Made by a program: the position numbers and the translations under genes. Of a stretch of DNA of 64,000 bases, positions 52,334 to 61,380 are shown one piece after another. Every line of letters begins with the position of its first letter. Within the stretch, counting starts at the first letter, position 1. The notes under the pieces are model-generated. The model was given only the letters and a program-made list of their open reading frames with translations. It searched no databases and was not told where the DNA came from. Source of the stretch: Modestobacter altitudinis (lineage in GTDB: Bacteria; Actinomycetota; Actinomycetes; Mycobacteriales; Geodermatophilaceae); contig NZ_SJEW01000016.1 in the NCBI RefSeq assembly GCF_005930475.1, positions 1-64,000 of the forward strand. The letters are read 5' to 3'.

Positions 52334-52350
52334 GTGGCACTCAGTGCCAG
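52334..52350. promoter_or_regulatory. Candidate MftR operator before mftD and GGDEF-EAL
   Basis: GTGGCAC-TCA-GTGCCAG is a near-perfect 17-base palindrome. It lies 115 bases before mftD and 105 before the divergent GGDEF-EAL-mftE transcript. It matches the palindrome in the mftA promoter (60480-60496) at 15 of 17 positions, and the flank GCGTCGG is shared too. Confidence 0.65.
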
Positions 52351-52465
52351 CGTCGGCCGCCCCCGCTGCCCTGCGCTGTCACCCGGCCCGCGCGACCATG
52401 GGGCCCCTGCTGGGCGGCGACCCGTCACCCGGCGCGATCACGTACCAGGACGGCAGGAGCAGTCG

Positions 52466-53689
52466 ATGGCCAACCCGTGGTTCGAGTCAGTGGCGGAAGC
52501 ACAGCGTCGGGCGAAGAAGCGCCTGCCCAAGGGCGTCTACGGCGCGCTGGTGGCCGGCTCCGAGCGCGGCGTCACCGTCGACGACAACACCGCCGCCTTC
52601 GCCGAGCTCGGCTTCGCCCCGCACACTGCCGGGCTGGCCAACGACAAGCAGATGGCCGTCCGGGTCATGGGCCAGGACATCTCGATGCCCGTGCTGATCA
52701 GCCCCACCGGCGTGCAGGCCGTGCACCCCGACGGAGAGGTCGCCGTCGCCCGGGCCGCCGCCGCCCGCGGCACCGCCATGGGGCTGTCGTCCATGGCGAG
52801 CAAGCCGATGGAGGAGGTCATCGCGGCCAACCCGCAGACCTTCTTCCAGCTGTACTGGGTCGGCGATCGCGACGTGATGGCCGCCAAGGTCGAGCGGGCC
52901 CGCAAGGCCGGGGCGGCCGGGCTCATCGCCACCCTGGACTGGTCGTTCGCCTACGGCCGCGACTGGGGCAGCCCGTTCATCCCGGAGAAGGTCAACTTCG
53001 AGGCGGTGCGCCGGTACGCCCCGCAGGTGGCCCTCAAGCCGCGGTGGCTGTGGACCTTCGCCAGGACCGGCAAGCTGCCCGACCTGACCGTGCCGAACAT
53101 GGTGGGCGTCCCCGGCGAACCGGCGCCGACGTTCTTCGGTGCCTACGGCCAGTGGATGCAGTCGCCGATGCCGAGCTGGGAGGACGTCGCCTGGCTGCGC
53201 GAGCTGTGGCCCGACGCGCCGTTCATGCTCAAGGGCGTCATGCGGGTCGACGACGCCCGCCGCGCCGTCGACGCCGGGGTCACCGCGATCTCGGTCTCCA
53301 ACCACGGCGGCAACAACCTCGACGGCACGCCGGCCTCCATCCGGGCCCTCCCGGCCGTGGCCGAGGCCGTCGGCGACCAGGTCGAGGTGCTGCTCGACGG
53401 CGGCATCCGCCGCGGCAGCGACGTCGCCAAGGCCCTGGCCCTGGGCGCCAAGGCGGTCATGATCGGCCGCGCCTACCTGTGGGGCCTCGCGGCCAACGGC
53501 CAGCCCGGGGTGGAGAACGTCCTCGACCTGCTGCGCGACGGGCTCGGCTCCGCGCTGATCGGGCTGGGCCACACCTCGATCGACCAGCTGAACCCCGGCG
53601 ACCTGGTCATCCCGCCGGGCTTCGAACGCCACCTGGGCACCCCCGGCCCCGACGCCCCCGTGGGCAACCCCGCGTCCGGCCAGGCCTGA
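52466..53689 (+). CDS. mftD: Premycofactocin synthase MftD
   Basis: A 407-residue FMN-dependent alpha-hydroxy-acid oxidase-fold enzyme that turns AHDP into premycofactocin by oxidative deamination. Markers: WFESVAEAQRRAKKRLPKGVYGALVAGSERGVT at the start, LISPTGVQAVHPDGE, FQLYWVGDRD, the catalytic His280 in ISVSNHGGNNLDG and the phosphate motif LLDGGIRRGSDVAKALALGAKAVMIGRAYLWGL. These match MftD rather than lactate oxidase. ATG 52466 has GGAGCAG upstream. It is alone on the + strand inside the locus. Confidence 0.93.
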   Translation: MANPWFESVAEAQRRAKKRLPKGVYGALVAGSERGVTVDDNTAAFAELGFAPHTAGLANDKQMAVRVMGQDISMPVLISPTGVQAVHPDGEVAVARAAAARGTAMGLSSMASKPMEEVIAANPQTFFQLYWVGDRDVMAAKVERARKAGAAGLIATLDWSFAYGRDWGSPFIPEKVNFEAVRRYAPQVALKPRWLWTFARTGKLPDLTVPNMVGVPGEPAPTFFGAYGQWMQSPMPSWEDVAWLRELWPDAPFMLKGVMRVDDARRAVDAGVTAISVSNHGGNNLDGTPASIRALPAVAEAVGDQVEVLLDGGIRRGSDVAKALALGAKAVMIGRAYLWGLAANGQPGVENVLDLLRDGLGSALIGLGHTSIDQLNPGDLVIPPGFERHLGTPGPDAPVGNPASGQA

Positions 53690-53779: not shown

Positions 53780-54712
53780 TCAGTCGGCGAAGACGGCGGT
53801 GAGGGCGGCGGCGACGTCGCGGTGGTCGCGGACCAGGCGCAGCCGCCCCCGCCCTGCCCGGGCCAGGTCGCGGCCGAGCTCGACATCGTCCTCCCCCGAG
53901 GTGTCCAGCAGCACGTCGAGCCGGGGCAGCCGGGCGGCGGTGAGCCGCGGGTCGGGCCCGGCGTTGTGCACGCAGTCGGACAGCAGCAGCACCCGCGCGT
54001 CCCGCGGCGGCACCCCGGCGAGCTGCCGGGCCGCCGTCTCCAGCGCGAAGGTCACGTTGGTCAGCCCCTGGGTCGGCACCCGCAGCAGCAGGTCGAGCAC
54101 GGCCAGCGGGGCCACCTGCTCCCCCATCGGCACCAGCACCGCCGCGTCGGACCAGAAGGCGACGACGGCCAGCCGGTCGCGGGCGAGCTCACCGGCCAGC
54201 GCGCCCACCGTGGCCGCCGCCGTCTGCACCCGTTCGCCCTTCATCGACCCGGACACGTCGACCACCAGGACCACCGACCGCCGCTGCCGGACCCGCTCCC
54301 GGACGACGATGTCGGTCTCCTCGGGGTAGGGGTCGCCGGCGATCACCTCCAGGGTCCGCTCCAGGTCCAGCTCGTCGGACCCCCCGCTCCACGGCGTGCT
54401 GACCAGCTCACCGACCCCGCGCCGGGACCGCCGGTCGCGGGCCGGCCGCGGCACCGCCAGCCGGCGGGCGATCTGCCGCGCCCGGGCCCGCGTGAGCTGG
54501 TCGACGGCGTTCTCGGTGGCCAGGTCGGCGAGCGGGATCAGGTCGGCCGGCTCGTCCGTCGTCCCGGACGCCGTGCTCCCCGGCCGGGACGGACCGGTCC
54601 GGTCCCGCCGCCGGTCACCCGACGACAGCGCCAGCCCACCCCCGCCGCGGGACGGCTCGTAGAGCGACGGCTGCTCGGTGAGCTGCTTGGGCCGGCGCCG
54701 CAACGGCCGCAT
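53780..54712 (-). CDS. VWA-domain protein paired with a MoxR ATPase (CoxE-like)
   Basis: A 310-residue protein. The first 100 residues are charged and low-complexity; a VWA domain follows with an intact MIDAS, VVDVSGSMKGER (about 148-159), TNVTFALETAA and LLLSDCVHNAG. The pair MoxR-VWA acts in chaperoning metal-cofactor insertion or protein remodelling. No signal peptide or membrane helix, so cytosolic. It is 66 bases after the MoxR gene, which lies on the same strand. Confidence 0.87.
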   Translation of the reverse strand: MRPLRRRPKQLTEQPSLYEPSRGGGGLALSSGDRRRDRTGPSRPGSTASGTTDEPADLIPLADLATENAVDQLTRARARQIARRLAVPRPARDRRSRRGVGELVSTPWSGGSDELDLERTLEVIAGDPYPEETDIVVRERVRQRRSVVLVVDVSGSMKGERVQTAAATVGALAGELARDRLAVVAFWSDAAVLVPMGEQVAPLAVLDLLLRVPTQGLTNVTFALETAARQLAGVPPRDARVLLLSDCVHNAGPDPRLTAARLPRLDVLLDTSGEDDVELGRDLARAGRGRLRLVRDHRDVAAALTAVFAD

Positions 54713-54778
54713 GCCCCGGGCGCGGGCCGCGCCCGGACGGTCCCGCCGGGTGACCGGCGAGTCTGCTTCGACGGCTCT

Positions 54779-55675
54779 TCAACCAGGCGCGGCCGCGGCC
54801 GGCTGGAGCAGGAAGTGGTCCTCCCAGATCTCCCGGAGCACCGTCTCGGGCGTGCTCTCCAACGTCTCGTCGAGGAAGATCCGCCCGGACAGCGCGAGCA
54901 GGACGGCGTCCAGCACGACGTCGGTGTACTCCTCCGGCAGCCCGCGGGGCGGCGCGACCGACGGCTCGTCGGGCAGTGGCACCCCGCGCATCGCGGCCAG
55001 CTGGGCGGCGACCAGCGCGGTGTCGATGGCGCCGCGGACGCTGCTGCCCTGCCGGACGTCGTCGCGCTCGCGGGTCGCCCGGGTCAGCGCCACGGCGTCG
55101 GCGACCAGCCGGGGCGACTCGACGCCGGTGCGCCGGCCGACGATCCCGCGCTCGGCCTCGGCGTCCTGGTAGCCGATCGCCAGCCGGCACAACCGGTCGT
55201 GCACCGAGGTCGACAACCGCGTCGTCCCGACGTTGTCGAAGGGGTTCATCGAGGCGATCACCCGGAAGCTGGGCAGCGCCTCGACCACGCCCACCCGGGG
55301 GATGGTGATCCGCCGCTCGGCCATCGCGGTGAGCAGGGTGTTCAGGGTGTCCTCCGGCGCCCGGTTGAACTCCTCGACGTAGAGGAAGCCGCCGGCGCGC
55401 ATCGCCTCGACCAGCGGGCCGGGCACGAAGTTGTCCGGCGAGTAGTCCTCCCGCAGCACCCGGGCCGGGTCGTGGTGCCCGACCAGCCGGGTGGGCGTGA
55501 GATCGGCGTTGCCCTCGACGAAGACCAGCGGGATGCCCCACTCCGCGGTGATCGAGCGCAGCAGCGTGGACTTGGAGGTGCCCGGCGGCCCCTCGAGCAG
55601 GACGTCGCGGCCGGCGGCGACCGCGGCCAGCAGCAGGTCCAGCTCGCGGGCCCGCCCCACCAGGTGCCGCGCCAC
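54779..55675 (-). CDS. MoxR-family AAA+ ATPase
   Basis: A 298-residue ATPase from GTG 55675. Walker A is LLEGPPGTSKSTLLRS (25-40), Walker B with the MoxR wording GGFLYVEEFNRAPEDTLNTLLTAMAERRITIP, and sensor 1 VIASMNPFDNVGTTRLSTSVHDRL. The frame stays open upstream to TGA about 55790, and reads sensible protein (NEHISHSAGDDPLVTGS); a CTG at 55777 preceded by GAGAGGA could be a start giving 332 residues. The P-x-G-T-S-K-S-T Walker A and CoxD-like length suggest the CoxD/CoxE pair. It lies 190 bases after the SDR genes, same strand. Confidence 0.88.
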   Translation of the reverse strand: MARHLVGRARELDLLLAAVAAGRDVLLEGPPGTSKSTLLRSITAEWGIPLVFVEGNADLTPTRLVGHHDPARVLREDYSPDNFVPGPLVEAMRAGGFLYVEEFNRAPEDTLNTLLTAMAERRITIPRVGVVEALPSFRVIASMNPFDNVGTTRLSTSVHDRLCRLAIGYQDAEAERGIVGRRTGVESPRLVADAVALTRATRERDDVRQGSSVRGAIDTALVAAQLAAMRGVPLPDEPSVAPPRGLPEEYTDVVLDAVLLALSGRIFLDETLESTPETVLREIWEDHFLLQPAAAAPG

Positions 55676-55864: not shown

Positions 55865-56701
55865 CTACTGGACGGTGTACCCGGCGTCGACCGGGAGGGT
55901 CACGCCGGTGATGTAGCGCGCCTCGTCGGAGACGAGGAACAGGATCGCGTTGGAGATGTCGACCGGCTCCACCCACGGGATCGGCAGCGCGTTGGTCGAC
56001 TGGAAGATGGGCTCGGCCTTCTCCCGGCTAGGTGCCGGGTCGTCGGGCGCGAACAGCCCCCAGGTCTTCTGGTTCTGGATCATCACCGTGTCCACGCCGG
56101 TCGGGTGCACGCTGTTGACCCGGATCGAGTGGGCGGCGAACTCGTTGGCCAGGGTGCGCATGATCCCCACGACGCCGTGCTTGGCCGCCGTGTAGTGAAT
56201 CGTGTTCGGCGTCCCCTTGAGCCCGGCCGTGGAGCTGGTCAGCACGATCGCCCCGCCCCGGCCGCCCTCGACCAGGTGTGGCAGGGCGGCCTTGCAGGTG
56301 TTCCAGACGCCGGTGAGGTTGATGTCGATCATCTCCCGCCAGGCGTCGTCGGTGAGCTCCAGCGCCGGCTGGATCTCGAAGACGCCGGCGTTGCCGAGCA
56401 CGATGTCGAGCCGGCCGAGCTGGGCGACCCCGTCGTCGACCGCGGCCTTGAGCGCCCCGGAGTCGCGGACGTCGGCCTTGGTGGCCACGATCCGCCGGTC
56501 CAGCGCCTCGACCTGGCGCACCGTCTCCGCCAGGTCCTCCTCGGTGGCCGGCGGGTACATCTGGATCGACTCGACCGGTCCGGCGATGTCGACGGCGATG
56601 ATGTCGGCACCCTCCTGCGCCAACCGCAGCGCGTGGCTGCGGCCCTGGTTGCGCGCGGCGCCGGTGATGAACGCGACCTTGCCCTCCACCCGTCCTGCCA
56701 T
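55865..56701 (-). CDS. Mycofactocin-dependent SDR dehydrogenase 1
   Basis: A 278-residue short-chain dehydrogenase of the mycofactocin-coupled type. The cofactor motif is TGAARNQGRSHALRLA (14-29). The family hallmark, an insertion after the second beta strand ([34 protein letters not shown]), is present; it is thought to hold NAD tightly so that mycofactocin re-oxidises it in place. Catalytic Ser in VLTSSTAG, Tyr/Lys in YTAAKHG. The substrate may be a primary or secondary alcohol. ATG 56701 overlaps the stop of SDR 2 by one base (TGATG). Third of three paralogues. Confidence 0.92.
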   Translation of the reverse strand: MAGRVEGKVAFITGAARNQGRSHALRLAQEGADIIAVDIAGPVESIQMYPPATEEDLAETVRQVEALDRRIVATKADVRDSGALKAAVDDGVAQLGRLDIVLGNAGVFEIQPALELTDDAWREMIDINLTGVWNTCKAALPHLVEGGRGGAIVLTSSTAGLKGTPNTIHYTAAKHGVVGIMRTLANEFAAHSIRVNSVHPTGVDTVMIQNQKTWGLFAPDDPAPSREKAEPIFQSTNALPIPWVEPVDISNAILFLVSDEARYITGVTLPVDAGYTVQ

Positions 56702-57537
56702 CACTTGACCACCGATCCGGCGTCCACGGGCAGCTGGACGCCGGTGACGTAGCGGGCCATGTCCGAGGCGAGGAAGACGACGGCATTGGAGATGTCGACC
56801 GGCTCCACCCACTTGATCGGCAGCAGGTTGAGCGTGAGGAAGGCATCGCCGGCGTCGTCCCTCGTCGCGGTGCCGGGCGCGAGGTCGGGCCGGAACAGGT
56901 CGTAAGTGCCCTGGTTCTGCACCATGTCGGTGTTCACCGTGGTCGGGTGCACCGAGTTGACCCGGATCATGTGCGGCGCCAGCTCGATGGCGAAGACCTT
57001 CATCAGGCCGACCACGCCGTGCTTGGCGGCGACGTAGTGCGACAGGTGCGCCATGCCCATGATCCCGGCGGTCGAGCTGGTCAGCACGATCGAGCCGCCG
57101 CCGTCGTTCGCCTTCAGGTGTGGCACCGCCGCGCGGACGGTCTTGAAGACGCCGGAGAGGTTGGTGGCGATCATGTCGTCCCACATCTCGTCAGAGATGT
57201 CCTCGATCGCGGCGTAGCTGGCGATCCCGGCGTTGGCGGCCACGACGTCCAGCCGGCCCAGTTGCGCCACCCCCTCGTCCACGGCGGCGGTCAGCGCGGC
57301 GGTGTCCCGGACGTCGGCCTGGGTGGCGACGATCCGCCGGTCCAGCGCCTCGACCTCCTTGACCGTCTGCTGCAGGTCCTCCGGTGTGGCCATCGGGTAC
57401 GGCACCGTGCCGATCTGGCTGCACAGGTCGACGGCGATGATGTCCGCGCCCTCCTGCGCCAGCCGGATCGCGTGGCTGCGGCCCTGACCACGCGCCGCGC
57501 CTGTCACGAACGCGACCTTGCCCTCGAGCATGCCCAT
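56701..57537 (-). CDS. Mycofactocin-dependent SDR dehydrogenase 2
   Basis: A 278-residue SDR with the same layout: [16 protein letters not shown], the coupling insertion [33 protein letters not shown], Ser in VLTSSTAG and YVAAKHG. Its insertion is nearly the same as that of SDR 3 and differs from that of SDR 1, so 2 and 3 share a recent duplication. The stretch LTSSTAGIMGMAHLSHYVA differs around the active site, which suggests another substrate. It overlaps SDR 1 by one base and lies 76 bases after SDR 3. Confidence 0.92.
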   Translation of the reverse strand: MGMLEGKVAFVTGAARGQGRSHAIRLAQEGADIIAVDLCSQIGTVPYPMATPEDLQQTVKEVEALDRRIVATQADVRDTAALTAAVDEGVAQLGRLDVVAANAGIASYAAIEDISDEMWDDMIATNLSGVFKTVRAAVPHLKANDGGGSIVLTSSTAGIMGMAHLSHYVAAKHGVVGLMKVFAIELAPHMIRVNSVHPTTVNTDMVQNQGTYDLFRPDLAPGTATRDDAGDAFLTLNLLPIKWVEPVDISNAVVFLASDMARYVTGVQLPVDAGSVVK

Positions 57538-57613: not shown

Positions 57614-58429
57614 TCACTTGGCGGTGAAGCCGGCGTCGACCGGCAGGGTGACGCCGGTGACGTACCGGCCGTCGTCGGAGACCAGGAAGACGATCGCGTT
57701 GCTGATGTCGACCGCCTCGATCATCTCCACCGGCAGCAGGTTGGTCATCGCGCCGGCGATCGTCGGGTCCTCGGCCAGCCAGGTCTGCATGAACTCGTTG
57801 ACGACCATCGGGGTGTTGACGCCCGTGGGGTGGATCGTGTTCACCCGGATCCGGTGCGGGGCCAGGGTGTTGGCGAAGGACCGCATCAGCCCGACGACCC
57901 CGTGCTTGGCCGCGGTGTAGCCCTGCCCGCCGCCGGAGTCGCCGCCGATGCCCTTGAGCCCGGCGGTCGAGCTGGTGAGCACGATCGCCCCGCCCTGGCC
58001 CTGCTCGACCAGCACCGTCTCGGTGGCCCGGACGGTGTTCCAGACGCCGGTCAGGTTCACGTCGATGACGTCCTGCCAGCTCACGCTGGGGTCCTCCTCG
58101 GCACCCATCGGCGCGATTCCGGCGTTGGCCAGCACGATGTCCAACCGACCGAGTTGTGCGACGCCGTCCCGGACGGCCTGCTGCAGCGCCGGCAGGCTGC
58201 GGACGTCGGCCTCGCTGGCGACGATCCGCCGGTCGAGGGCCTCCACCTCCTTGACCGTCTGCTGCAGGTCCTCCGCGGTGGCCATCGGGTACGGCACCGT
58301 GTCGATCTGGCTGCACAGGTCGACCGCGATGATGTCGGCGCCCTCCTGCGCCAGCCGGACGGCGTGGCTGCGGCCCTGGCCGCGAGCCGCGCCGGTGATG
58401 AAGGCGACCTTGCCCTCGAGCTTGCCCAT
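57614..58429 (-). CDS. Mycofactocin-dependent SDR dehydrogenase 3
   Basis: A 271-residue [19 protein letters not shown], insertion [33 protein letters not shown], Ser in [11 protein letters not shown] and Tyr/Lys in GYTAAKHG, with a Gly-rich loop [11 protein letters not shown] before the Tyr that the others lack. First of the three tandem dehydrogenases downstream of mftC and the 48-residue gene. The family passes electrons to mycofactocin and hence needs MftABCDE. Confidence 0.93.
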
Positions 58430-58492
58430 GCTCCTGCTCCTCGTGTGGTCCCCCGCTGTGGACGTGCCTGGACGCGGTCGGACCAGGAGAGG

Positions 58493-58639
58493 TCAGACCG
58501 TCGGGGCCCCGATCAGGGCGGCGGCCGCCGGCCGCTCGGTTCGCGGGTGCCAGGCCGCCGGGCCGCGCAGGTACCAGGGGCGGGAGAGCTGCAGGGACGC
58601 CAGCGCAGGGAGGGGTCCGCGGCAGTCGACGATCGCCAC
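58493..58639 (-). CDS. Unrecognised 48-residue gene between mftC and the SDRs
   Basis: GTG 58639 is preceded by an excellent Shine-Dalgarno, AAGGAGGTG, eight bases upstream. The product begins VAIVDCRGPLPALASLQLSR, has a WYLRGPAAWHPR middle with two Trp and ends with an Ala-rich LIGAPTV. One Cys at residue 6. It lacks the IDGMCGVY end of MftA and has no membrane segment. It is in the mft operon on the same strand, 105 bases after mftC and 63 before SDR 3. It is too short to have been found by usual gene length cut-offs. Function unknown; a second peptide, an SDR partner or a leader are possible. Confidence 0.6.
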   Translation of the reverse strand: MAIVDCRGPLPALASLQLSRPWYLRGPAAWHPRTERPAAAALIGAPTV

Positions 58640-58744
58640 GCACCCCACCTCCTTCGTCGCGCTGTCTCGTCGTGGTCTACGCCCGCGTGCTGGACGCGGG
58701 CTGGGAGCCGACCGGCACCGGGCTGGGGTGCCGGCCGGCGCGGC

Positions 58745-59971
58745 TCAGCTCAGCGGCAGCCCGGCCAGCGGGGACTCGTCGCACAACTTGGCCGGGATGC
58801 TCGGCAGCCCGAGCATCGTCGGCTGGCCGCGGACCGGGCCCTTGTGCGAGTGGTCGAGGTGGCTGCGGGGTGTGACGAGCTCCAGGTCGCGGGCGGCCAG
58901 CGCGGTCTCGCCGTAGCCCTGCACGCACTCCGGGTCCGGGCCGTCCAGCGGCAGGCCGGTGAAGAACTTCGCCGCCATGCAGCCACCGCGGCAGGCGTCG
59001 AAGTGCGCGCACTTGGTGCAGGCCCCGCCGGTCTGGGGGTTGCGCAGGTCGGCGAACAGCTCGCTGTGCTGCCACACCTGTTGGAAACCGCCCGGGGAGC
59101 GCACGTTGCCGGCCAGGAACTGCTCGTGGATGGCGAACGGGCAGGCGTAGACGTCACCGACCGGGTCGATCAGGCAGACCACCCGGCCCGCGCCGCACAG
59201 GTTCAGCCCGGGCAGGGCCTCGCCGAGGGCGGACAGGTGGAAGAACGAGTCGCCGGTGAGCACCTGGTCGCCGTTGGCCAGCAGCCAGGAGTACAGGTCC
59301 CGCTGCTGGGCCTGGGTGGGGTGCAGCCGGTCCCAGACGTCGGCGCCGCGGCCCGACGGGCGGAAGCGGGTGATCCGCAGCTGTGCGCCGTAGCGGTCGG
59401 TGAGCGCCTTGAACTCATCCAGTTGCCCGGCGTTCTCCCGGGTGACCACGACGGAGACCTTGAAGTCCTTCATCCCGGCCTCGGCCAGGTTCTCCAGCGC
59501 CCGGGTGGCGGTGGCGAACGAGCCGGTGCCGCGGACGGCGTCGTTGACCTCGGCGGTGGCGCCGTCCAGGGAGATCTGCACGTCGACGTAGTCGGTGCGG
59601 GCCAGCTGCTGGGCGCGGGCTGCGTCCAGCTTGATCCCGTTGGTGGAGAACTTGACCCCGACGTCGTGGCCGATGGCGTAGTCCAGCAGGTGCCAGAAGT
59701 CCGGGCGCACGGTCGGCTCACCGCCGCCGACGTTGACGTAGAACACCTGCATCCGCTGCAGCTCGTCGATCACCGCCTCGGCCTCGGCGGTGGACAGCTC
59801 CCGCGGGTCCCGCCGTCCCGACGAGGACAGGCAGTGCACGCAGGCCAGGTTGCAGGCGTAGGTGAGCTCCCAGGTCAGGCAGATCGGCGCGTCCAGGCCG
59901 TACTCGAACTGGTCGATCAGCTTCCCGCCCGCGGGGCGCTCGGCAGGGCGGGAGGGCAGGACGGCGGTCAC
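58745..59971 (-). CDS. mftC: Radical SAM maturase MftC
   Basis: A 408-residue radical SAM/SPASM enzyme that decarboxylates the C-terminal Tyr of MftA and forms the Val-Tyr ring. The radical SAM cluster is CNLACVHC (Cys40, 44, 47), with VNVGGGEPTVRPDF the GGE motif. The SPASM region has auxiliary cysteines in LNLCGAGRVVCLIDPVGDVYACPF and GGACTKCAHFDACRGGCMAA. The N-terminal GLDAPICLTWELTYACN wording matches MftC. It overlaps mftB by four bases. The last 25 residues (TMLGLPSIPAKLCDES) are a family feature. Confidence 0.96.
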   Translation of the reverse strand: MTAVLPSRPAERPAGGKLIDQFEYGLDAPICLTWELTYACNLACVHCLSSSGRRDPRELSTAEAEAVIDELQRMQVFYVNVGGGEPTVRPDFWHLLDYAIGHDVGVKFSTNGIKLDAARAQQLARTDYVDVQISLDGATAEVNDAVRGTGSFATATRALENLAEAGMKDFKVSVVVTRENAGQLDEFKALTDRYGAQLRITRFRPSGRGADVWDRLHPTQAQQRDLYSWLLANGDQVLTGDSFFHLSALGEALPGLNLCGAGRVVCLIDPVGDVYACPFAIHEQFLAGNVRSPGGFQQVWQHSELFADLRNPQTGGACTKCAHFDACRGGCMAAKFFTGLPLDGPDPECVQGYGETALAARDLELVTPRSHLDHSHKGPVRGQPTMLGLPSIPAKLCDESPLAGLPLS

Positions 59972-60264
59972 GCGGACTCCTCGGGACGGCGTTCGATCAT
60001 CTGCGAGCGGGCGAGCGTGGCCAGCGCGGTGACGTAGGCCCGGTGCTGCCCCTCGGGCACCTCGCAGGCGGCCAGGGTGCTCGGCACGTCGGGGTGCGCC
60101 TCGAGAGCGGTCACCACCGCGACCAGCGGCTTCGACTTCAGGAACGACAGCTTCCGGTTCCCGAAGTGGTAGACGAGCGCGCCGAAGGGCTCCGGCCGCA
60201 GCGCCACCGACGGCGACTTCCGCCAGGGCACGGCGGGGTCGAAGGGCACGGCCGTGTCGGTCAC
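59968..60264 (-). CDS. mftB: Mycofactocin precursor chaperone MftB
   Basis: A 98-residue RiPP-recognition-element (PqqD-like) protein that binds the MftA leader for MftC. The core PWRKSPSVALRPEPFGALVYHFGNRKLSFLKSKPLVAVVTALEAHPDV is typical of MftB. GTG 60264 is taken as start; GTG 60327 is in frame, overlaps mftA and would add 21 Pro/Gly-rich residues. It overlaps mftC by four bases. Order A-B-C is as in other mft loci. Confidence 0.93.
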   Translation of the reverse strand: MTDTAVPFDPAVPWRKSPSVALRPEPFGALVYHFGNRKLSFLKSKPLVAVVTALEAHPDVPSTLAACEVPEGQHRAYVTALATLARSQMIERRPEESA

Positions 60265-60311: not shown

Positions 60312-60431
60312 TCAGTACACCCCGCACATGCCGTCGATGGAGACCTCCTCGACCAGGGAGTCCTCGACGAGCACCTCCTCGGCGGCGGCCGGGGTCTCGG
60401 TGCGGGTCTCGTCCTGCGTCGTCTCGGGCAC
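60312..60431 (-). CDS. mftA: Mycofactocin precursor peptide MftA
   Basis: A 39-residue precursor that ends in the invariant SIDGMCGVY, whose last Val-Tyr becomes mycofactocin. The acidic leader (PETTQDETRTE ... EEVLVEDSLVEEV) binds MftB. GTG 60431 is preceded by CCGGAGGCATC; a GTG at 60458 would add nine residues but has no ribosome site. It is short enough to be missed by length cut-offs. It heads the mftABC operon. Confidence 0.96.
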   Translation of the reverse strand: MPETTQDETRTETPAAAEEVLVEDSLVEEVSIDGMCGVY

Positions 60432-60472
60432 GATGCCTCCGGGAGTGATCTGGTTCACGATCGGACGAGCCC

Positions 60473-60774: not shown

Positions 60775-61380
60775 ATGACCCAGACCGTGGTCCGCCCCGA
60801 CGCGCGCGAGGACACCCGCGCCCGGATCGAGCAGGCCGCCCTGGACCTCTTCACCGCCCAGGGCTTCGAGCAGGTGACGATCGACGAGATCGCCGAGGCC
60901 GCCGGCATCAGCCGGCGCACGTTCTTCCGCTACGTGAGCGCGAAGGCCGACGCGGTGTGGGGTGACTTCGACGCCCACGTCGTCCGCCTCGAGGCGATGC
61001 TCGCTGCCACGGTGGACGACCAGCCGGTGCTGGCCTCGATCTGCGCGGCCTACGTGGAGGTCAACGACTACGCGCACGCCGACCTGCCGATGTTGCGGCA
61101 GCGGATGCGGCTGATCCTCACCGAGCCGGCGCTGCAGGCGCACTCCCAGGTGCGGTACGCCGCCGTCGACCGGGTCGTCGCCGCGCACGTCGCCCGGCGG
61201 ACGGGGGTGACCCCCGACGCGCTCGTCCCCCGGCTGGTCGCCGTCAGCACCCGCGCGGCGGCGACGACGGCGTTCGAGGTCTGGCTCGCCGACGGGCGAG
61301 GCTGGCTGGGCACGGTGCTGCACCAGGCCTTCGACGAGCTGGCCGCCGGCTTCCCGTCCCTGCGGGCCCTGCCGGTATGA
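60775..61380 (+). CDS. mftR: Mycofactocin-system TetR regulator MftR
   Basis: A 201-residue TetR repressor. HTH: RIEQAALDLFTAQGFEQVTIDEIAEAAGISRRTFFRYVSAKADAVWGDFDAH (about 17-68); the FFRYV..KADAVWGDFD wording is that of MftR. MftR in mycobacteria represses mft genes until long-chain acyl-CoA binds. The C-terminal domain ends AFEVWLADGRGWLGTVLHQAFDELAAG. It is divergent from mftA with the palindrome between, nearer mftA. Confidence 0.92.
   Translation: MTQTVVRPDAREDTRARIEQAALDLFTAQGFEQVTIDEIAEAAGISRRTFFRYVSAKADAVWGDFDAHVVRLEAMLAATVDDQPVLASICAAYVEVNDYAHADLPMLRQRMRLILTEPALQAHSQVRYAAVDRVVAAHVARRTGVTPDALVPRLVAVSTRAAATTAFEVWLADGRGWLGTVLHQAFDELAAGFPSLRALPV

Follow-up and report, generated by a model that had tools for sequence, protein, structure and literature searches.

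The loci for mycofactocin (mft), a redox cofactor, carry small proteins such as MftB, which the available part of its source describes as about 90 amino acids long and present in all mft gene neighborhoods (PMC3023750), and MftR is given as the regulator of mft in the accessible portion of a further report (PMC11778925). Arrest peptides of the RAPP-like group, according to the accessible text of the study that describes them, stall the ribosome with the third residue of the motif in the P site, and the motifs whose arrest activity is demonstrated there do not include RGPA (PMC10987492). In the window that we analyzed, a 64,000-nucleotide stretch of Modestobacter altitudinis DNA, a small open reading frame (ORF) of the mft operon invites comparison with both kinds of system.

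Position and composition of the small ORF

The small ORF occupies the gap that separates mftC (58745-59971) from the first SDR gene (57614-58429). The relevant features of the window are as follows.

60775..61380, plus strand: mftR (TIGR03968)
60312..60458, minus strand: mftA (TIGR03969)
59968..60264, minus strand: mftB (TIGR03967)
58745..59971, minus strand: mftC (TIGR03962)
58646..58654, minus strand: Shine-Dalgarno sequence AAGGAGGTG, with 8 nt separating GGAGG from GTG
58493..58639, minus strand: small ORF, 48 amino acids, GTG start, TGA stop
57614..58429, minus strand: first SDR gene, mycofactocin coupled (TIGR03971)
56701..57537, minus strand: second SDR gene (TIGR03971)
55865..56701, minus strand: third SDR gene (SDR3; TIGR03971), of a clade found in 14/14 loci with the small ORF
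53780..55675, minus strand: genes that follow the SDR block and encode a MoxR-type AAA ATPase and a CoxE-like VWA protein

The initial annotation had proposed an unannotated 48-residue gene at this place in the mft operon, preceded by a perfect Shine-Dalgarno sequence and encoding a peptide with Cys6 and two Trp. The frame, start, and neighbors are indeed those described, a good GGAGG-type site lies 8 nt from the GTG, and Cys6 and both Trp appear in the translation. An alternative in-frame GTG at 58648 would give a product of 51 amino acids; the GTG at 58639 is favored as the start because the orthologues begin M-A/T-V-V/L-D-C. The length of the ORF is in itself no evidence of coding, since chance frames abound in this high-G+C region, where the ORF list of the window has 75 ORFs of at least 25 amino acids overlapping 10 kb.

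Distribution in Geodermatophilaceae

In a first pass, an MftC query was run on 79 near genomes and 30 mftC loci were inspected, among which five Modestobacter loci carried the same small ORF. A profile of 14 sequences then placed orthologues, all at E ≤ 1e-20, in 14 genomes out of the 112 of the family; the next match was at 0.002. The E-values of those 14 are flattering because the profile was made from them. With the single peptide as query against the same 112 genomes, the Klenkia-group matches ranged from 1e-9 to 1e-12 and the next match was at 0.004. Weak family matches (E 0.002-0.1) were left out of the count, and two of them (L083 and L084) were inspected. By genus, the small ORF is present in 9/9 Klenkia-group genomes and 5/23 Modestobacter genomes, the other 18 of the 23 being without it. 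The suggestion that other mft loci be compared thus yielded orthologues at 14 loci in two genera.

Beyond the family, a class-wide search of 394 genomes returned the query's own copy and one other match (E 6.6e-4), which lies inside a 281-codon frame, reads RPWYLTSP, and was taken as chance. A wider contig scan gave 11 loci, 10 of which are contigs of family genomes already found, including a 3,350-base contig of G141 (L060); the eleventh, in Phycisphaerae, was likewise set aside as chance, with stop codons breaking its frame. A plasmid search gave no match, and neither did Pfam or NCBIfam at E ≤ 10 or Rfam at E ≤ 1. A literature search with the peptide core strings and for mycofactocin in Geodermatophilaceae did not find the small ORF. 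Conservation places the ORF above the chance frames around it, given the gap between 14/112 genomes at E ≤ 1e-20 and the next match at 0.002. From these searches, it looks like a small gene whose family is new and narrowly distributed, confined to two genera of bacteria from soil and rock, which would make it an optional and as yet unnamed extra component of the mycofactocin system. With 14 sequences and a clear core, the family is compact and amenable to direct tests.

Codon-position signature of a probable protein-coding gene

The 14 orthologues share a constant core, (S/A)(R/K)PWYLRGPAAW(H/K/R)P, in which the wobble bases vary.

58550..58579, minus strand: invariant-core codons, PWYLRGPAAW, from the 14-sequence alignment

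In alignment A2, the first and second bases of codons 12 to 21 and 23, chosen for having a single residue in all 14 sequences, vary at 0/22 positions and the third bases at 8/11, which is the outcome of the third-position check proposed in the initial annotation. Over codons 11 to 23, 4/26 first and second bases vary compared to 10/13 third bases (Fisher P = 3e-4, an indicative value because the rows are related). Across 36 codons, the pN/pS of the Modestobacter copies among themselves was 0.54 and that of the Klenkia copies 0.45; between the genera it was 0.81 in frame, rising to 1.24 and 1.51 when the frame was shifted. Stop codons or frameshifts in orthologues, which had been named as grounds for refutation, were absent, all 14 copies being open.

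Signals for translation are also present in both genera. A GGAGG-type site precedes the GTG at the same place in 5/5 Modestobacter copies. In the Klenkia group, an OYE gene (a TIGR03996 match in the one locus tested) sits between mftC and the small ORF, and its stop overlaps the small-ORF start as GTGA in 9/9 loci. The C-terminal tails differ in length and sequence among the 14 copies, and the AlphaFold model of the peptide is poor (pLDDT 57), with no stable fold predicted. The small ORF is real and, judged from the alignments, looks protein coding.

The SDR block as the constant neighbor

To place the small ORF in its genomic setting, we compared 41 regions (40 fetched plus the window), of which 14 contain the small ORF and 27 do not. 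These 41 are a selection: the window, 34 more taken from the list of 60 mftC places, and six ORF regions added from genomes outside those drawn in the MftC search. An SDR block lies directly 3' of the small ORF in 14/14 loci, and the AAA and VWA genes follow the SDR genes in 13/13 of the ORF-containing loci that are uncut by a contig end. In 9 of the 27 regions lacking the small ORF, mftC or OYE is followed by an SDR block; two of the remaining regions (L136 and L137) end at mftC, so that their following genes cannot be judged. Peptide and profile searches of the 112 family genomes revealed no copy of the small ORF outside an SDR-block setting. One genome (G010) has three mftC loci (L099, L123, and L124), and the small ORF occurs only at L099, with mft SDR genes. 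The AAA and VWA genes are also found in several loci without the small ORF; the MoxR-type ATPase and CoxE-like VWA protein may act together in the maturation of an mft-linked enzyme.

In the SDR tree, the first SDRs after the small ORF fall in separate clades, each with members from ORF-less loci, and one ORF locus (L111) sits on a long branch. The small ORF therefore keeps its place while the neighboring SDR changes. This variation in clade makes a dedicated docking peptide for a given SDR, one of the roles first suggested for the ORF, unlikely. On the poorly resolved MftC tree, the small-ORF label requires three changes. Relative to MftB of the window, one group of loci (those with the small ORF plus L114, L115, L123, L136, and L137) shows 82-99% identity and a second group, the remaining ORF-less loci, 67-77%. 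In L114 and L115 (genomes G004 and G016), a gene is inserted between the SDR genes of the mft block; its product and that of the gene at 52334-53689 (plus strand) of the window share about 60% identity.

Elements between the small ORF and the first SDR gene

Several sequence features lie at the end of the small ORF and downstream of it.

58541..58543, minus strand: conserved rare Arg codon (codon 24), CGA in the window
58521..58535, minus strand: inverted repeat GCGGCY-N3-GGCCGC within the small ORF, with nearly invariant arms and a variable spacer
58475..58500, minus strand: hairpin spanning the small-ORF stop codon, present in 10/14 copies and missing in 4/14
58449..58457, minus strand: AGCGGGGGA element 5' of the first SDR gene

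Between the small ORF and the start of the first SDR gene, 13/14 ORF-containing loci have the AGCGGGGGA element; of the ORF-less SDR loci, 0/9 have it in front of the first SDR. Two genomes, G006 and G007, have additional sequence between the element and the SDR start, and the G007 element is shorter by two bases. A different sequence occupies the same slot elsewhere: the 15-mer GCGAGAGACCGGATC occurs five times in the 23 Modestobacter genomes, always between mftC and the SDR genes, its carriers being five ORF-less Modestobacter SDR loci (L139-L143) and never a genome with the small ORF. In these loci, the first SDR follows it at a distance of about 40-55 nt. An Rfam search with four ORF-less leaders gave no match; GCGAGAGACCGGATC is perhaps an operator or an RNA leader. 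Its confinement to the mftC-SDR slot of ORF-less SDR loci makes that slot look regulatory. The linkage of the ORF with a downstream element, together with a slot shared with an alternative leader, argues for a role in regulating the SDR block.

A change in the type of constraint was observed within the ORF itself. Codon 24 is CGA in nine copies, AGA in four, and CCA in one, with a final A in 14/14. Among the 740 Arg codons of mftC, SDR3, and the AAA and VWA genes of the same operons, CGA was counted 10 times (10/740) and AGA never (0/740), and 0/794 aligned columns of these genes end in A throughout. In codons 2 to 23, first and second bases vary at 13/44 positions and third bases at 17/22, while in codons 24 to 32 the corresponding counts are 7/18 and 2/9, suggesting that the constraint on residues ends about where a constraint on bases begins. 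Of the conserved fourfold columns, about 27% have an invariant wobble base (mftC, 55/207; SDR3, 38/137), and under this rate at least seven invariant wobbles among the nine of codons 24 to 32 would have P 0.002, a value that ignores relatedness and for which the boundary at codon 24 was picked after the data were seen.

The RNA itself gave a mixed picture. The hairpin at the stop codon shows two-sided changes at 2/11 pairs, and the consensus fold of the small ORF at 0/21. Single-sequence folds of the loci had no common alternative structure, and neither an internal promoter nor an intrinsic terminator was found at the locus. The inverted repeat shows no covariation among the ORF copies; its motif is common in these genomes, yet mostly rarer than the reversed control, and we rejected it as a genome-wide signal for want of enrichment over that control. 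The toeprint distance is 15-16 nt, and a ribosome with codon 23 in the P site would reach about column 82 and cover the 5' arm of the repeat (columns 78-92). This step is weak because the repeat has neither covariation nor enrichment.

A possible leader peptide and its alternatives

Our tentative preference is that the small ORF encodes a leader peptide that acts in cis on the mycofactocin SDR block, a reading that may well be wrong. Ribosomes leaving mftC in Modestobacter, or the OYE gene in Klenkia, would translate the small ORF, and the nascent PALxxL...PWYLRGPAAWxP would occupy the exit tunnel as the ribosome reaches the rare Arg codon. Pausing at this codon, under the influence of some signal, could alter the pairing of the RNA just downstream and thereby change how well the SDR message is translated or how stable it is, so that the dose of cofactor-using versus cofactor-making enzymes would be set. 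This reading is favored by the SDR block lying directly 3' in 14/14 loci whatever the clade of the first SDR, by the AGCGGGGGA element that accompanies the ORF, by the wobble constraint and A-ending codon that begin after the core, by a stop-codon hairpin with compensatory changes, and by the predicted lack of a stable fold in the peptide. It is weakened by the inverted repeat without covariation and the hairpin missing in 4/14 copies; by the displacement of AGCGGGGGA in G006 and G007 and its shortening in the latter; by the lack of a terminator, Rfam match, or shared alternative fold at the locus; by an RGPA motif that lies outside the demonstrated arrest motifs; and by the conservation of residues after RGP. 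The motif KPWYLRGP presumably resembles the core of ribosome-binding proline-rich antimicrobial peptides, a likeness that we do not use as evidence.

A leader peptide would mean cis control of cofactor-dependent dehydrogenases; to our knowledge, little is known of how the mycofactocin system is regulated beyond MftR. A more specific version, in which a nascent-peptide switch of a new kind possibly senses mycofactocin, its redox state, or an SDR substrate to set the ratio of SDRs to biosynthesis, and is replaced by an unrelated leader in sister species, is unlikely.

A somewhat more doubtful reading than the leader peptide is a small basic protein that acts in trans, with a constant pathway partner bound through the Trp-rich PWYLRGPAAW(K/H)P core; candidate partners would be an SDR3-type dehydrogenase, a maturation protein, or the MoxR/VWA pair. 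Purifying selection on the residues and the ORF's own Shine-Dalgarno sequence or stop-start coupling would suit such a protein, as would an SDR3-clade gene in 14/14 loci and the AAA and VWA genes in 13/13 uncut ones. These partners, however, are also found without the small ORF, which for its part never occurs away from an SDR block in the family genomes searched, and the peptide is short, with a low-confidence model. A trans-acting protein would also leave the wobble constraint after codon 24 unexplained. If this were nonetheless its role, the ORF would supply a small protein partner of nicotinoprotein SDRs.

It is improbable that the ORF is a translated spacer whose peptide sequence hardly matters and which keeps ribosomes on the mftC/OYE-SDR message through coupling or protection from Rho. 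The GTGA overlap with OYE in the Klenkia group, the variable tails, and an ORF end near the SDR start in most copies would fit this role, but 11 core residues are identical in 14/14 copies despite varying wobble bases.

The initial annotation had also raised a second RiPP substrate of MftC, to which we give very little credence, while its claim that the product is not MftA holds. The ORF adjoins mftC in Modestobacter, and the product is small, with Trp and Tyr in its core, but features of MftA are absent: there is no TIGR03969 match, 0/14 copies end in VY, and the tails vary. Moreover, Cys is missing from 9/9 Klenkia-group copies, in which OYE separates mftC from the small ORF. Barely credible is a conserved RNA or DNA element with a frame open by chance. 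The mostly invariant wobbles at codons 24-32 and the frequency of open frames at high G+C would fit it, but the codon-position pattern of the core, the GTGA overlap kept in all nine Klenkia-group loci, and a between-genera pN/pS that is higher in the shifted frames than in frame speak against it.

Comparison with known systems

We finally set the candidate leader peptide beside the systems that it most resembles. Like MftB (TIGR03967), the product is a small protein of mft loci, but it has half the length, no detected relation to MftB, and a distribution limited to two genera. It shares with MftA (TIGR03969) the condition of a small ORF in the same operon and differs in being without a C-terminal core of the IDGMCGVY type, the true mftA being located at 60312-60458. 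Compared with the RAPP-like group, the genes downstream encode mycofactocin-type SDRs instead of secA, secDF, or yidC, no localization signal was seen, and the motif is RGPA and not RAPP, RAPG, or RAGP; a stall at RGP would leave the conservation of the residues past it unaccounted for. Yet the small ORF has in common with SecM, ApcA/ApdA, and the RAPP-like arrest peptides that it is a short ORF directly upstream of its possible targets, with a conserved core, variable ends, and an R-G-P triplet.
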